DNA from: Actinomycetota bacterium
GTDB taxonomy: Bacteria; Actinomycetota; Coriobacteriia; Anaerosomatales; Anaerosomataceae
Assembly (NCBI GenBank): GCA_004348925.1
Contig: RCMX01000001.1
Span: 1-36,512 of the forward strand
Length of the DNA stretch: 36,512 nucleotides
Direction: 5' to 3'
Part shown: one piece after another, positions 20,109 through 30,069 of the stretch
Numbering within the stretch: the first letter of the stretch is position 1
How the letters are laid out: each line of letters starts with the position of its first letter
Translations under genes and position numbers: made by a program
The notes under the pieces: model-generated
Database searches by the model: none
What the model was told of the DNA's origin: nothing
Seen by the model: the letters and a program-made list of their open reading frames with translations, nothing else

Positions 20109-21443
20109 ATGTCCCGACTCTTCGGAACCGACGGCGTACGCGGAATCGCGAACGACGACCTTACGCCCGAGCTGGCGTTCAAGCTCGGCGAGGCGGCCGG
20201 TCACTTCCTCGGCGAGAAGGGCCGTGGCAGCATCGTCATCGGCATGGACACGCGACGCAGCGGTGACATGCTCGAAGCGGCGCTCGTGGCGGGCGTGTGC
20301 TCCGGCGGGGCCGACGCGTACCGGCTGGGCATCGTTCCCACGCCTGCGGTCGCGTACCTCACGCGGGCGCTCAAGGCGGACGGCGGTGTCGTGATCTCGG
20401 CATCGCACAATCCGGCCGCGTACAACGGCATCAAGTTCTTCGACCGCGATGGCTTCAAGCTTCCGGACGAGATCGAGGACGAGATCGAGGAGTTCCTCGT
20501 TTCCGAGCGGACGTGGAAGCGCCCGACCGGTCTTGGCGTTGGACGCTCGAAGATGGTGCCGGATGCCATCGACCGCTACATCTCGCATGCGGTAGAGAGT
20601 GTCCGAGGCGACCTGGTGGGGCTCACGATCGCGGTCGACTGCGGCCACGGCGCTGCGGCAAAGGCGACGGTGAAGGCGCTCAAGGACCTTGGCGCGCGCG
20701 TGCACGCCATCAACTGCGAGTACGACGGCATGGACATCAACGACGGCTGCGGATCCACGCACCTCGAGGTCATCTCTGAGCTCGTCAATGCGCACGAGGT
20801 CGACTTCGGCATCGCACACGACGGCGACGCTGACCGCGTGCTGGCTGTGGACGAGACCGGCGCCGAGCTTGATGGCGACGTGATCATGGCCATCTGCGCC
20901 GCGAAGATGAAGGAGCGCGGCGAGCTGCCGGGTGACACCGTCGTGGCGACCGTGATGAGCAACCTCGGCTTCGAGCGCGCCATGCGTGAGCGCGGCATCA
21001 ACGTCATCAAGACCAAGGTGGGCGACCGCTACGTTCTGGACCAGATGCGCACGTCGGGCGCGATGCTCGGCGGCGAGCAGTCCGGCCACGTCATCTTCCT
21101 CGCGCACACCACCACCGGCGACGGCCTCATCACCGCGCTGCAGCTTGCCGCGATCGTCCGCGAGTCGGACGAGCCGCTCTCGGAGCTGCGCCAGGTGATG
21201 CACCGCTACCCGCAGGTTCTGGAGAACGTGCACGTGGCCGACAAGGGCCTGCTCTCGGGCAGCTCGGCAATCCACGATGCCGTCCGCGCCGCCGAGGAAG
21301 AGCTTGGCGAGCATGGCCGAGTGCTGGTGCGCGCATCGGGCACCGAGCCGCTCGTTCGCGTGATGGTGGAGGCCGCCGACACCGAGACCGCCCGTGCGAT
21401 CGTCGACCGGATCTCGGAGGTCGTGCGGCGCGGGCTGGGGTAG
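20109..21443 (+). CDS. glmM: phosphoglucosamine mutase
   Basis: GlmM converts GlcN-6-P to GlcN-1-P for UDP-GlcNAc and cell-wall synthesis, the step after GlmS. The 444-aa product starts MSRLFGTDGVRGIAN. It has the phosphoserine loop SASHNP with catalytic S99, the metal loop DGDADRV, the sugar loop GGEQSGH and the phosphate-binding RASGTEPLVRVMVE at the C-terminus. ATG at 20109 follows CGGAGGAGA. An accessory block separates it from glmS. Confidence 0.97.
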   Translation: MSRLFGTDGVRGIANDDLTPELAFKLGEAAGHFLGEKGRGSIVIGMDTRRSGDMLEAALVAGVCSGGADAYRLGIVPTPAVAYLTRALKADGGVVISASHNPAAYNGIKFFDRDGFKLPDEIEDEIEEFLVSERTWKRPTGLGVGRSKMVPDAIDRYISHAVESVRGDLVGLTIAVDCGHGAAAKATVKALKDLGARVHAINCEYDGMDINDGCGSTHLEVISELVNAHEVDFGIAHDGDADRVLAVDETGAELDGDVIMAICAAKMKERGELPGDTVVATVMSNLGFERAMRERGINVIKTKVGDRYVLDQMRTSGAMLGGEQSGHVIFLAHTTTGDGLITALQLAAIVRESDEPLSELRQVMHRYPQVLENVHVADKGLLSGSSAIHDAVRAAEEELGEHGRVLVRASGTEPLVRVMVEAADTETARAIVDRISEVVRRGLG

Positions 21444-22603: not shown

Positions 22604-22624
22604 GTGGAAACGGAAGTGTGCCCC

Positions 22625-23548
22625 ATGCGTGCCCCACGAGTCCAGCGCAGCAGACTGAGATACCCGCTTGATGTGGTGTTCGGTTCCGCAGCTCATGTTC
22701 GTCTGATGCGTGTCATCCAGCATGCGGTAGGCGGACCGGTCAGTGTTACCGATGCCGCCAGAATGGCGGGTTTGTCCAGGACTGGTGCGCGCAAGGCGCT
22801 GGAGGTGCTCGCCGGACTGGGTGTCATCAAACGCGTGGGGACCGGTCGGGCTCAGAAGTACGGCCCAGCAGAAGACGGCTTCTTCTCACCCGGGCTCATC
22901 CAGCTGTTCCAGCAGGAGCAGCAGCAGTATGAAGAGCTACTCGGCAGCCTGCGCGAGGCCGTAGGGATGCCGGAGATCCGGAATGCCTGGCTGAGCGAGC
23001 GAGTCGACCTAGAGGAACGCGCTCTTGAGCTTGACGTTGTGGTGGACACCAAGGTACTTAGCTGGATCGGACCCGAGCTTCGCACCCGTCTTATGCCCAC
23101 CGAGAAGCGATTCGACATCATCATCGAGTTCAACGCCTTCACACGAGCAGATGAGCCTCAGCTTCCCGCGGATGCCGTTCTCATTTGGGGACCTGGCGAC
23201 GAGGCCGCCGGTGAGCGTTCATCGGGTGCGCTGAGGTATACCGATTCGGTTGAGCGCTCCTGGCGGACGGCGCAGGCAATCGCAGAGATGATGAAGTCCG
23301 ATCCCTCGCTCGCCCGCAGGGCGCTGCAGTACACCAACATGCTCCTGCGCGAGGATCAGGGAACCGCAAGCGGCGACCTTGGTGAGTGGCGCCAGCTGCT
23401 GGAGAGCTACTCGGCAGAACGACTGCGCGACTTGCTGGTATCAAGGAGTTCTCGCGCCGATAGACTGCGGCGCAGCTCACCCTTCTTCGCCGTCCTGACC
23501 GCGGATGAGCGAGATCGGCTGCTTGAAGAGATCGAGAGCAGGCGATGA
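22625..23548 (+). CDS. winged-helix protein, putative antitoxin/regulator
   Basis: This is a 307-aa protein with a winged helix-turn-helix at about residues 25-80 (SVTDAARMAGLSRTGARKAL, then VIKRVGTGRAQKYG as the wing). It is followed by a glutamine-rich helix, a domain at about 108-175 that resembles a nucleotidyltransferase fold without active-site residues, and a helical C-terminus with RLRRSSPFFAVLTADER. I prefer ATG at 22625 (GGAAG 8 nt upstream) to GTG at 22604, which abuts the operator. It overlaps the next gene by 4 nt. It probably represses its own operon and may neutralise its partner; this role is inferred. Confidence 0.75.
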   Translation: MRAPRVQRSRLRYPLDVVFGSAAHVRLMRVIQHAVGGPVSVTDAARMAGLSRTGARKALEVLAGLGVIKRVGTGRAQKYGPAEDGFFSPGLIQLFQQEQQQYEELLGSLREAVGMPEIRNAWLSERVDLEERALELDVVVDTKVLSWIGPELRTRLMPTEKRFDIIIEFNAFTRADEPQLPADAVLIWGPGDEAAGERSSGALRYTDSVERSWRTAQAIAEMMKSDPSLARRALQYTNMLLREDQGTASGDLGEWRQLLESYSAERLRDLLVSRSSRADRLRRSSPFFAVLTADERDRLLEEIESRR

Positions 23549-24081
23549 GATATGACCAGCTGGAGCATGCAATTAGAGCCGCTTGTGACGTTGCGGGTGA
23601 TACGGAGCTACTGATCTTCGGCTCGCAGGCGATCCTGGCGAGCGTTCCTGAGGCGCCAGAAGCACTGAGAGCGTCGATCGAAGTGGACGTCCAGTCCAAG
23701 AATCGTCCGGAGATGACGGACTTCATCGACGGGGCGCTGGGCCAAGACTCGATGTTCCATGCAACCCACGGCTTCTACGTTCATGGTGTCTCTATCGAGG
23801 CGGCCACGCTTCCAGATGGCTGGCTGGAACGGACGGTGGCCGTCTCGCATCCTGTCAGAACCAAAGGGGGCACCGGGCAGTGCCTGGAAGCCCACGACCT
23901 GGCTGCGAGCAAGCTCGTTGCATACCGGGAGAAGGACAGGGTCTTCGTCGCCACGCTTCTTGGCGAAGGACTCATCGATAGCCAGGTTCTGCTCGGGCGG
24001 ATTCGTTCGCTCCCTGTGACTGACGCTGTCCGCAACAAGCTGATCCGATGGGTCGAAGTCACGATTGAAGATCTCGGGTAG
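23545..24081 (+). CDS. DUF6036-like nucleotidyltransferase, putative toxin
   Basis: This 178-aa protein resembles the DUF6036 group of nucleotidyltransferase-fold proteins, related in layout to AbiEii toxins. Visible elements are GSQ (G26-S27), an ExD pair E46 and D48 in ASIEVDVQ where DxD is usual, the family core IDGALGQDSMFHATHGFYVHGV (split around residue 71), ATLPDGW, and the AHDLAASKLVAYREKDR segment with D118, K123 and D131. The ATGA overlap with the upstream gene implies a fixed ratio of the two products. Target and toxicity are not known. Confidence 0.72.
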   Translation: MRYDQLEHAIRAACDVAGDTELLIFGSQAILASVPEAPEALRASIEVDVQSKNRPEMTDFIDGALGQDSMFHATHGFYVHGVSIEAATLPDGWLERTVAVSHPVRTKGGTGQCLEAHDLAASKLVAYREKDRVFVATLLGEGLIDSQVLLGRIRSLPVTDAVRNKLIRWVEVTIEDLG

Positions 24082-24154: not shown

Positions 24155-24163
24155 TGATATAAT
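24155..24163 (+). promoter_or_regulatory. extended -10 promoter of glmS
   Basis: TGATATAAT gives a perfect TATAAT (24158-24163) with an extended -10 TG (24155-24156). No good -35 is seen at the right distance, as expected for extended -10 promoters. The transcript would start near 24170, about 50 nt before the ribozyme cleavage site. Confidence 0.6.
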
Positions 24164-24219
24164 CCTCGGCAAGCAAAGCGACGATGCCCGAGGAGGAATG
24201 CCCCACACATCTGAATGCG

Positions 24220-24386
24220 AGCGCCAGGACTGGCAGCGCAAAGCGCAGCGGAGGCACACACCCCCGCGCCAGTTGACGAGGTGAGGGCTTATCGAAAGAC
24301 TCGGCGGATGGCCCTCCGGCTCTGGAGTCGAAACGACGAAGACAAAGCCCCCGGGTGACCGGGAGACAAAGCGACGTCGATCCAGG
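24220..24386 (+). ncRNA. glmS ribozyme (GlcN6P-responsive self-cleaving leader)
   Basis: The glmS leader contains the conserved glmS ribozyme core in order. A|GCGCC has the expected cleavage between A24220 and G24221. P1 is ACTGGC (24229-24234) with GCCAGT (24268-24273). Then come TTGACGAGG (24273-24281), GAGGGC (24283-24288) with GCCCTC (24311-24316), TTATCGA (24289-24295), TCGGCGG (24301-24307), and a 3' domain with a GTGA-capped hairpin at 24350-24363 and a closing CTGGA/TCCAG pair ending near 24386. GlcN6P would act as cofactor for cleavage, lowering glmS expression. The 3' limit is approximate. Confidence 0.93.
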
Positions 24387-24494
24387 TTCACGCAGACACA
24401 CGCTGGCGCGCCCCGCACGGGGAATCATCGTGCCTGCATTCGCGGCGAATCGCCGCACACACCCTGACCAGCTACCTCGCGAGAGGATGTACCT

Positions 24495-26321
<1,827 letters not shown>

Positions 26322-26339
26322 ATGACAGCGGAGCGCTCG

Positions 26340-26825
26340 ATGATCAACGGCCTTGGCGTCGACATCGTGGAGATCGACCGCATGCGCCTCGCGCTTGCGC
26401 GGCATCCGCGTATGCGCGAGCGGGTCTTCTCGGCTGCGGAACGCGAGTACTGCGACAAGCGCAACAAGCCCGAGATCCACTACGCGATGCGCTTCGCCGC
26501 GAAGGAGGCGGTCTTGAAGGCGCTGGGGACCGGCTTCAGCAGCGGCATCCGCTTCACCGACGTGGAGGTCATGCGCGACGACCGCGGCCGTCCGGTGCCC
26601 AAGCTCTCCGGCCGTGCCGAGGAGGTCGCCCGCGAGGCGGGTGTGATCGAGATGCATCTCTCGCTCTCGTTCACGCACGCGAACGCGGTGGCCTCGGCAG
26701 TGGCGATCACCGACGACATGCGGCCGCGCAAGGACGACTCGGCGCCGACGCAGCGCGAGCAGCTGGCCGCGACGTTCAAGGACGCGCGCGGGCTGCTCGA
26801 CGAGGTTGGGAACGAAGAAGCATAG
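26340..26825 (+). CDS. acpS: holo-[acyl-carrier-protein] synthase
   Basis: AcpS moves phosphopantetheine from CoA to acyl carrier protein. From ATG at 26340 the product is 161 aa and starts INGLGVDIVEIDR, the family start, with metal-binding D8 and the motif RFAAKEAVLKALG with K55-E56. An ATG at 26322, directly after the glmS stop, would add six residues. The core ends near residue 125; the remaining 35 or so residues form a charged, probably helical tail not normal for AcpS. A hairpin follows the stop. Confidence 0.93.
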   Translation: MINGLGVDIVEIDRMRLALARHPRMRERVFSAAEREYCDKRNKPEIHYAMRFAAKEAVLKALGTGFSSGIRFTDVEVMRDDRGRPVPKLSGRAEEVAREAGVIEMHLSLSFTHANAVASAVAITDDMRPRKDDSAPTQREQLAATFKDARGLLDEVGNEEA

Positions 26826-26833
26826 CGAGACCA

Positions 26834-26857
26834 AACGGGCCGCGTGAGCGGCCCGTT
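26834..26857 (+). terminator. perfect stem-loop after acpS
   Basis: AACGGGCCGC (26834-26843) pairs perfectly with GCGGCCCGTT (26848-26857) around a GTGA tetraloop, 9 nt after the acpS stop. Only GCAC follows, so there is no T-run. It may be a weak terminator or an RNA-stability element between acpS and the NAD(P)HX repair gene. Confidence 0.5.
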
Positions 26858-26879
26858 GCACATCCGGGGGAGTGACGGG

Positions 26880-28409
26880 ATGCAGTACGCGCTCGGCGCT
26901 GATGGGATGCGTTCGGCCGAGAAGGCCGCAGTCGACAGCGGCGAAGCGACGCTTGCGGGGCTCATGGCCCGCGCGGGTGCGATGCTTGCCGACGAAGTGG
27001 AGCGGTCGGTGCCGGCGGGCGCGATCGCTGTCGTGACCGGCAAGGGCAACAACGGCGGCGACGGCTGGGTCGCGGCGCGCGTGCTGGCGGCCAGCGGTCG
27101 CGAGGTGCGGGTGCTCGCGCTTGCAGTCCCCGATGCGCTCGCGGGCGAGGCAGCCGCGGCCGCTCAGGCCGCGCTCGAAGCCGGCGTGCGCTGGGAGCCC
27201 GCCGGCGACGCGCTTGCGATGGCGGAGCAGCTCGACGGCGTGGCGGTCATTGTCGACGCGGTCTTCGGCGTGGGATTCTCGGGTGCGGCGCGCGAGCCGT
27301 ACGCCTCGGCGATCGTGGCGATGGACGACGCGGACGCGCCGGTGATCTCGGCGGACGTGCCCTCGGGCGTGGATGCCGGTACGGGCGCGGTCGCGGGACC
27401 CGCCGTGCACGCTGCGGTGACGGTGACGTTCTCGGCGCCGAAGCCGGGGCTGCTGCTGTATCCGGGCGCCGGCTGTGCGGGCGAGATCGTGGTGGCCGAT
27501 ATCGGGTTGCAGCGCGATGTGCTCGACTCGGCAGGCGGTCTGGAGGTCTGGGACCGCGGCGACTACCGCGCGACGCTGCCGGTGCCCTCGCCCGACGCGC
27601 ACAAGGGCCAGCGGGGGAGCGTGCTGCTGGTCGCGGGCTCGCGGCTGTACGCGGGCTCGGCGGTCCTCGCGGCGGCCGGCGCGATGCGCATGGGCGCCGG
27701 CTACGTATTCGCGGCCGTGCCCGCCTCGGTGGCGCCGGTCATGCAGGCAGCGCTGCCGCACGTGATCGCGGTCGGCCTCAAGGAGACCGCCGAGGGGACG
27801 CTCGCGGCGTCGTCTGTGGAGCGCATCATCCGCCTGGCTGCCGAGGTCGACGCCGTCGTTCTCGGCCCGGGGCTTACCACGCATGCCGAGGCGGTGAGCG
27901 TGGTGCGACGCCTCGTGGAGCTGCTGCCGAGCCCGCTCGTGCTGGACGCCGACGGTCTCAACGCGTTCGCCGAGACGGGCCCGGGGCCGATCATGGCGCG
28001 CTCGGCGCCGACGGTCATTACGCCACACCCCGGCGAGCTTGCGCGGCTGCTCGGGGTGAGCACGCCCGAGGTGCAGGCCGATCGTGTCTCGGCAGCGGGG
28101 CGCGTGGCGGGCTGCCGGCTGGCGTGCGTCCTCAAGGGGGCGCGGACGATCGTCTCGGCAGGCGGTCGGACGGTCGTGACGCTTGCGGGCAACCCGGGCA
28201 TGGCGACCGCTGGCAGCGGCGATGTGCTCGCGGGGATGATCGGCACGCTTCTCGCGCAGGGGCTCGACTCGCTCGAGGCGGGTGCGCTCGGCGCGTTCGT
28301 GCATTCGCGGGCGGGCGATCTGGCCGCCGAGGAGCTCACCGAGATATGTCTGACCGCGAAGGACCTGCCCGCGTATGTGCCCGCAGCGGTCAGGGAGATT
28401 CTCGGCTAG
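26880..28409 (+). CDS. nnr: bifunctional NAD(P)HX epimerase / ADP-dependent dehydratase
   Basis: This enzyme repairs hydrated NADH and NADPH. The product is 509 aa from ATG at 26880, which lies 7 nt after GGGGGAG. The N-terminal epimerase domain carries GKGNNGGDG (residues 54-62), DAVFGVGFSG and DVPSGVDAGTG. The C-terminal dehydratase, ribokinase-like, has LLVAGSRLYAGSAVLAAAGA, DADGLNAF (near 357), TPHPGELARLLG and AGSGDVLAGM (near 443). Position between acpS and alr matches other Actinobacteria. An upstream GTG at 26844 lies inside the hairpin and is unlikely. Confidence 0.95.
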   Translation: MQYALGADGMRSAEKAAVDSGEATLAGLMARAGAMLADEVERSVPAGAIAVVTGKGNNGGDGWVAARVLAASGREVRVLALAVPDALAGEAAAAAQAALEAGVRWEPAGDALAMAEQLDGVAVIVDAVFGVGFSGAAREPYASAIVAMDDADAPVISADVPSGVDAGTGAVAGPAVHAAVTVTFSAPKPGLLLYPGAGCAGEIVVADIGLQRDVLDSAGGLEVWDRGDYRATLPVPSPDAHKGQRGSVLLVAGSRLYAGSAVLAAAGAMRMGAGYVFAAVPASVAPVMQAALPHVIAVGLKETAEGTLAASSVERIIRLAAEVDAVVLGPGLTTHAEAVSVVRRLVELLPSPLVLDADGLNAFAETGPGPIMARSAPTVITPHPGELARLLGVSTPEVQADRVSAAGRVAGCRLACVLKGARTIVSAGGRTVVTLAGNPGMATAGSGDVLAGMIGTLLAQGLDSLEAGALGAFVHSRAGDLAAEELTEICLTAKDLPAYVPAAVREILG

Positions 28410-28488
28410 CGCAGGTCACAGCTTCCTCGGGTAGAATCCTCATGTGAAGAAACTCCGGCCACGCGCCGGTCGACGCTTTGGAGGAACC

Positions 28489-28947
28489 ATGGGACGCACT
28501 GCTCGCGACATCATGACCCCGAATCCACTCACGGTTGCCCGCGACCTCACGGTGACCGACGCCGCGAAGCTCATGGTCGAGCATCGCGTAGGCGCACTTC
28601 CCGTGCTCGACGGCGAGAAGCTTGTGGGAATCGTGACCGAGGGCGACCTCATCATGCAGGACGTCCGCATCGAGTTCCCCACGTACATCCACCTGCTTGA
28701 CGGCTTTATCATGTATCCGCCGTCGACGGCGCGCTTCGAGAGCGAGCTCAAGAAGGCTGTTGGCGCGACGGTCGAGGACGTCATGACCTCCGAACCGGTC
28801 ACCGTGCAGGCCGACACCACGGTCGAGGACTTGGCGACGCTCATGGTCGAGCGCGAGGTGAGCCGCGTGCCGGTGCTCGAGGGCGACAAGCTCGTGGGTA
28901 TCGTGAGCAAGTCGGACATCGTTCGCTCGCTGGTCGCGGGAGAGTAG
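28489..28947 (+). CDS. tandem CBS-domain protein
   Basis: The 152-aa product is made of two CBS domains, at about residues 7-62 (ARDIMTPNPLTVARDLTVTD, then GIVTEGDLI) and 95-150 (VEDVMTSEPVTVQADTT, then GIVSKSDIVRSL), separated by a linker with YIHLLDGFIMYPP. CBS pairs usually bind adenosine nucleotides and act as sensors. No catalytic domain is attached, so the target is unknown. ATG at 28489 has GGAGGA 3-4 nt upstream; GTG at 28444 would add 15 basic residues. A TAGAAT at 28432-28437 could be a -10 element. Confidence 0.88.
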   Translation: MGRTARDIMTPNPLTVARDLTVTDAAKLMVEHRVGALPVLDGEKLVGIVTEGDLIMQDVRIEFPTYIHLLDGFIMYPPSTARFESELKKAVGATVEDVMTSEPVTVQADTTVEDLATLMVEREVSRVPVLEGDKLVGIVSKSDIVRSLVAGE

Positions 28948-28950
28948 CAC

Positions 28951-30069
28951 ATGACGTATCGGCGCTCCGCGTGGGTGGAGATCGACGCCGCCGCGATCAC
29001 ACGCAACGTCCGCGCGCTCAAGGCGCTGACGCGGCCGGGCACCCGGTTCATGGCGGTCGTGAAGGCTGACGGCTACGGCCACGGTTCGCTTGTGACGGCG
29101 CAGGCCGCGCTTACCGGCGGCGCGGATCGCCTCGGCGTTGCCACGCTCGAAGAGGCCGCCGCATTGCGCGAGGGGGGCGTCTCGGCTCCACTCCATATCC
29201 TGAGCGAGCCGCCGGTCTCGGGCGTTGGACTCGTGATCGAGCTTGGCGTGATCCCCGCGCTCTACTCCCGCGAGTTCGCCGTCGCGCTCAGCCGGGCGGC
29301 TACGCTTGCAGATGTGACGGTACGCTACCACCTCAAGGTCGACTCGGGCATGAACCGCATCGGCGTTCGTGCCGAGGAGGCCCACGACATGGTCGCGTGG
29401 CTCAAGGGCCTGCCTGGCATCGAGATGGAGGGCGTCTTCACACACTTCGCCACCGCTGATGCTCCAGGCGACTGGGAGTTCGACGGTCAGGTCGACCGGT
29501 TCCGTCGCGCGATCGACAGAATGCGCTCCGAGAAGGTGCTGCCTTCGATGGTGCACGCGGCCAACAGCGCTGCGACGATCCTTCATCCCGAGACGCATTA
29601 CGACATGGTGCGCTGCGGCATCGCCATCTACGGACTCCATCCGGCACCCTCCACGTATGGGAAGATCGAGCTTGCACCGGCGATGTCGGTGAAGGCGCGC
29701 GTCAGCCTCGTGAAGCGCATCGGGCTGGGCGACGGCGTGTCGTACGGGTTCACGTACCACGCTGGCGGGCCAACGACCATCGCCACGGTGCCCATGGGGT
29801 ATGCCGACGGCGTCCACCGCGTTCTCTCGAACCGCATGGAGGTCCTCATCCGCGGTGTCCGGTGCCGTCAGGTCGGGCGCGTGTGCATGGACCAGATGAT
29901 GATCGAGGTCCCGGATCGCCTCGGCGTGACCGTCGGCGACGAGGTCGTTCTCGTCGGCGAACAGGGTGCCGAGCGCATCGTGATGGACGAACTCGCTGAG
30001 CACGCGGGGACCATCAACTACGAACTCGCATGCGGGTTCGCGCTGCGGATGGGCCGCTTGCAGGTCTAG
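28951..30069 (+). CDS. alr: alanine racemase
   Basis: Alr makes D-alanine for peptidoglycan using PLP. The 372-aa product has the PLP lysine K38 in MAVVKADGYGHG, the substrate-binding KVDSGMNRIGV segment, HAANSAATI, the GVSYGFTY region with the catalytic tyrosine area, and VCMDQMMIEV. ATG at 28951 lies 4 nt after the CBS gene stop. A 239-nt spacer with hairpins follows, separating it from the ATPase operon. Confidence 0.96.
   Translation: MTYRRSAWVEIDAAAITRNVRALKALTRPGTRFMAVVKADGYGHGSLVTAQAALTGGADRLGVATLEEAAALREGGVSAPLHILSEPPVSGVGLVIELGVIPALYSREFAVALSRAATLADVTVRYHLKVDSGMNRIGVRAEEAHDMVAWLKGLPGIEMEGVFTHFATADAPGDWEFDGQVDRFRRAIDRMRSEKVLPSMVHAANSAATILHPETHYDMVRCGIAIYGLHPAPSTYGKIELAPAMSVKARVSLVKRIGLGDGVSYGFTYHAGGPTTIATVPMGYADGVHRVLSNRMEVLIRGVRCRQVGRVCMDQMMIEVPDRLGVTVGDEVVLVGEQGAERIVMDELAEHAGTINYELACGFALRMGRLQV

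Follow-up and report, generated by a model that had tools for sequence, protein, structure and literature searches.

The window, the whole 36,512-nucleotide stretch of actinobacterial DNA analyzed here, carries a ribozyme-bearing glmS leader, with glmM upstream of glmS and a run of genes downstream. The features are listed below with their coordinates, strand and basis.

20109-21443: glmM, upstream of glmS
24158..24163, +: −10 hexamer TATAAT with TG extension, TGATATAAT (seen directly)
24190..24197, +: Shine-Dalgarno-like GAGGAGGA, within the 5′ fragment that cleavage would release (anti-SD pairing)
24209..24389, +: glmS ribozyme (RF00234; core identity; covariation in 40 actinobacterial copies)
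24220..24221, +: predicted cleavage site A(-1)/G(1), A24220/G24221 (RF00234 alignment)
24221-24225, +: GCGCC after the cleavage site (sequence)
24228..24274, +: P1, with enlarged GC-rich loop 24235-24267 (RF00234, alignment, sequence)
24275-24281, +: GACGAGG (sequence)
24289-24295, +: TTATCGA (sequence)
24292-24304, +: P2.1 (sequence)
24301-24307, +: TCGGCGG (sequence)
24303..24306, +: GGCG, 3′ strand of P2.2, partner of CGCC 24222-24225, completing the double pseudoknot (sequence)
24322..24385, +: P3.1 pseudoknot, CTGG 24322-24325 with CCAG 24382-24385 (compensatory changes)
24355-24358, +: GTGA tetraloop (GNRA) capping the P4 domain (sequence)
24478..24491, +: glmS ribosome-binding region, GAGAGGA in the short self-complementary CCTCGCGAGAGG (sequence)
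24495..26321, +: glmS, glutamine-fructose-6-phosphate aminotransferase, 608 aa (TIGR01135; Pfam SIS and GATase domains)
26322..30069, +: acpS, nnr, a CBS-domain gene and alr, downstream of glmS (profile matches)

The glmS product scored 841 bits against the TIGR01135 equivalog (cut-off 418), and acpS, nnr, the CBS-domain gene and alr, judging from their spacing and strand, likely share its transcript. A hairpin like that at the glmS ribosome-binding region was found only in several members of the family. A first-pass annotation had placed an extended −10 promoter upstream of a ribozyme standing directly before glmS; both placements were recovered, with TGATATAAT present and the glmS ATG at 24495 lying 274 nt past G1. 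A sigma-70 scan returned no −35/−10 pair at this promoter, and the support is for an extended −10 only. From the extended −10 the transcription start is predicted at ~24170, so that cleavage would free a 5′ fragment of ~50 nt, and most leaders of the host's GTDB order (the order, below) carry a comparable extended −10 element, placed ~54-77 nt before the cleavage site.

A covariance-model search of the window matched RF00234 at 24209-24389 on the plus strand, covering model positions 1-167 of 167 at 86.5 bits (E 9.4 × 10−19) against a gathering score of 37 bits; no other Rfam family reached threshold within the window, and the 2.25-Mb genome holds 1 copy. The covariance-model search suggested with the first-pass annotation gave significant RF00234 scores here and in other Coriobacteriia, and the annotation's call of a glmS ribozyme for this actinobacterium stands. 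The motifs it had named (A/GCGCC, P1, GACGAGG, TTATCGA, TCGGCGG and GTGA) were each found where it had put them. Its span of 24220-24386 lies within the ribozyme but falls short of the full extent. The score is lower than that of most relatives (the maximum in the order is 111.5 bits), mainly because P1 has an enlarged loop and helices end in non-canonical pairs.

Core positions were defined as those at least 93% conserved among 59 Bacillota ribozymes, and the window is identical to these at 37/37. The cleavage dinucleotide A/G is invariant in 40 actinobacterial and the 59 Bacillota copies. The fold was assessed on an alignment of the 40 actinobacterial copies, 31 of them from the order, where two-sided changes occur at 24/34 pairs and 92.6% of cells are paired; the covariation score was 0.450, where shuffles gave 0.176 and slid pairings no more than 0.158. 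Covariation in this alignment supports pairing in the P1, P2, P3 and P4 helices and in P3.1, where 3/3 counted pairs show compensatory changes and 90.8% of cells are paired. The strands of P2.1 and P2.2 (UCGA/UCGG and CGCC/GGCG) are complementary and invariant or nearly so, and covariation is hence uninformative for them. Taken alone, the sequence gave a minimum-free-energy fold no stronger than that of shuffles (z −1.0), as is usual for a pseudoknotted RNA. Read from the sequence, the cleavage site, the helices, the double pseudoknot and the GNRA-capped P4 domain are all intact.

The glmS ribozyme, or GlcN6P riboswitch (RF00234), is known from B. subtilis, T. tengcongensis and B. anthracis. 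The copy described here resembles these in its conserved architecture, cleavage site, core bases and place before glmS, and single-copy state aside it differs in three respects: its host is a high-GC actinobacterium with RNase J as well as RNase E/G, the loop of P1 is GC-rich and enlarged, and the 5′ leader is specific to the order and holds an SD-like motif at a near-fixed distance.

The ribozyme was present as a single copy in 49/69 genomes of the order, or in 49/57 of those in which an orthologous glmS start was found. Across the phylum Actinomycetota it was found, again in single copy, in 75/396 genomes, which include about ten further families, Acidimicrobiia and Thermoleophilia MAGs among them; in Bacillota, 77/119 genomes carried it. 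The first of two readings offered by the first-pass annotation, a wider distribution of the ribozyme, agrees with these counts. Other orders of the same class gave matches in 6/229 genomes, five of them in one family; the sixth (G124, where glmS sits on another contig) scored below the cut-off and is probably a chance match. In the family with five matches (f18, L120-L124) the ribozyme precedes a GlmS on a long branch, and the leaders carry a GGAGG-type stretch near the cleavage site. A literature search combining the glmS ribozyme with Coriobacter or Rubrobacter, which did not take in the main distribution surveys, returned no paper, and part of the actinobacterial distribution may already be known.

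Twenty genomes of the order lack the ribozyme. In 5 the assembly contains no glmS, 7 encode a different GlmS (~50% identical), and 8 have an orthologous glmS without the ribozyme. All of these last 8 keep a −10-like hexamer at the head of the leader, and RF00234 detected no degenerate ribozyme in them even at E 5. Since these eight relatives manage without it, the ribozyme is not essential. On the GlmS tree the order's clade contains 4 independent changes, made up of three cases outside genus g2 and g2 itself, and G097, which is absent from the tree, may be a fifth; within the order, at least four or five lineages cleanly lost the ribozyme while keeping the promoter. The clean deletions fall in five genera (L169, L172, L173, L174, L284, L285, L286 and L291). 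The different, ~50% identical GlmS without a ribozyme in L178-L183 of the same family (genera g4, g9 and g10 and one g3 genome) is a whole-gene replacement. The order thus holds two kinds of natural experiment: sister genera that kept promoter and gene while the ribozyme was cleanly deleted, and other genera in which the entire glmS gene was replaced.

A GlmS tree of 132 proteins (quick method, LG+G4) joined the 43 sequences of the order into one clade (support 99), which adjoins Collinsella, Enorma, Slackia and Adlercreutzia within Actinomycetota (53 rows jointly, support 99); these neighbours point to Coriobacteriia as the class of the order. Ribozyme presence requires at least 13 changes on this tree. 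We read the ribozyme most simply as ancestral to the order, inherited vertically and sometimes lost, which would make it a standard inherited regulator across this Coriobacteriia order and many other actinobacterial families and not a strayed Firmicutes speciality. A different history, in which the leader alone entered the ancestor of the order and spread across actinobacterial lineages by recombination before resident glmS genes, strikes us as possible though somewhat less than even in its chances. It would account for a presence that is patchy across the actinobacterial classes and for the near emptiness of the rest of the class (6/229, one below cut-off), but frequent clean losses mean that old inheritance followed by loss fits the same pattern, and the position of a 160-nt RNA on a tree is not reliable. 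The second reading in the first-pass annotation, that the ribozyme was transferred together with glmS, fared worse. Constraining the GlmS of the order and of Bacillota to form a clade cost 81 log-likelihood units and was mildly rejected (AU p 0.041), so tree and AU test together do not support an import of glmS with its leader. A recent horizontal acquisition of both from Bacillota is very unlikely, even given the patchy presence in Actinomycetota and the changes it requires on the GlmS tree, because the GlmS of the order sides with other Coriobacteriia and not with Bacillota, and because the ribozyme occurs in nearly all sampled families of the order, including the deepest branches of the GlmS clade.

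The leader upstream of the ribozyme carries a second recurrent element. In most leaders of the order a purine-rich complement of the anti-SD lies between promoter and ribozyme, with a median position of about −35 relative to the cleavage site; in the window it is GAGGAGGA, which begins 31 nt before G1 and pairs with the anti-SD at −10.1 kcal/mol. The mean best anti-SD energy in the order was −9.18 kcal/mol, compared with −6.84 ± 0.27 for dinucleotide shuffles; with one leader per family the values were −9.31 and −6.45 kcal/mol, a difference matched by 0/500 shuffles. With three background windows from further upstream in these loci as the reference, the order gave p = 8 × 10−6, a value not corrected for relatedness. 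Bacillota leaders showed the same enrichment at looser positions (−9.61 vs −6.98; background p = 6 × 10−4), and enrichment was weak in leaders of other Actinomycetota. An GAGAGGAG stretch is often followed by TGCC (24190-24197 in the window; leaders L002-L031 and L125-L139). A search of the rest of the genome for the layout TATAAT-to-AGGAGNNTGCC gave no match, but the pattern's fixed two-base gap misses the window's own three-base site, which makes this result uninformative. Pairing of the SD-like stretch with the hairpin at the glmS ribosome-binding region was considered and rejected (−30.2 kcal/mol, against −29.7 ± 0.45 for swapped partners).

No enrichment of start codons at SD spacing was seen in the order (10/44, compared with 8.5 ± 2.3 in shuffled spacers), behind its strong SD-like sites (7/28, expected 4.5 ± 1.6) or in Bacillota (14/38, expected 15.1). 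This lack of enrichment, together with varying lengths, makes it improbable that ribosomes use the SD-like stretch to translate an upstream ORF that extends into the ribozyme, even though the window has such a frame, 28 codons from ATG 24198 to TGA 24282-24284, and three genus mates have one of varying length. A 5′ anti-SD complement without a start codon, the arrangement of STAB-SD elements, is found order-wide; the window has the ATG at 24198.

A strong SD close to the 5′ end of a Bacillus mRNA acts as a stabilizer whether or not a start codon follows (PMC3997798), as in the STAB-SD 5′ mRNA stabilizers of that genus (Agaisse and Lereclus 1996, as cited in PMC3997798). Once cleaved, the glmS mRNA is degraded there by RNase J1, starting at the 5′ end (PMC3997798). 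Within the literature covered, a search for STAB-SD together with glmS found this review alone. The host genome encodes an RNase J (TIGR00649, 574 bits, cut-off 400). Based on the order-wide enrichment, the Bacillus precedents and the RNase J of this genome, we propose that the SD-like stretch may be a 5′ stabilizer that cleavage would remove. Like a Bacillus STAB-SD, it is a strong SD-like sequence near the 5′ end, has no associated start codon and occurs in an RNase J host; unlike one, it precedes the cleavage site of a ribozyme, and its protective effect is putative. The broader view, that cleavage in both Actinomycetota and Bacillota would be an amputation that strips the mRNA of a dedicated, ribosome-bound SD stabilizer lacking a start codon and exposes it to RNase J, is tentative and on balance doubtful. 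An SD-like element before the cut nonetheless gives a testable idea of why cleavage destabilizes the mRNA.

Taken as a whole, the leader would be a complete GlcN6P-dependent glmS ribozyme exerting negative feedback on glmS, and probably on the downstream operon genes too, a reading to which we give a probability of about 95%. Glucosamine-6-phosphate, on accumulating, would bind the preformed pocket as a cofactor, and the leader RNA would undergo self-cleavage at the A24220/G24221 junction. This would leave the downstream mRNA with a 5′-OH and open it to degradation from that end, with the RNase J of this genome as the most likely enzyme. The GlcN6P dependence, the cleavage and the mRNA decay are expected here by analogy with the ribozyme family, and the genome also encodes RNase E/G, so that decay may differ from that in Bacillus. 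That the RNA is instead a structurally conserved relic, either independent of GlcN6P or catalytically dead, is extremely unlikely, since the below-average score that might suggest it goes with an unchanged cleavage dinucleotide, unchanged P2.1/P2.2 active-site segments and core bases and a fold preserved by compensatory changes, and since lineages that abandoned the ribozyme show full absence and not decay.

Finally, the interval upstream of this leader varies within the order. Genus g2, which lacks the ribozyme, has a glmM-like frame that, as read from the sequence, ends right before glmS, and the winged-helix/DUF6036 gene pair of the window is absent from its glmM-glmS interval. In the window glmM and glmS are separated by other open reading frames, which include these two overlapping genes (22604-24081), one encoding a winged-helix protein and the other a DUF6036 nucleotidyltransferase. 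The winged-helix protein has a weak match to PADLOC PDC-M05A and AbiEi, and the two genes are possibly an abortive-infection or toxin-antitoxin-like pair.
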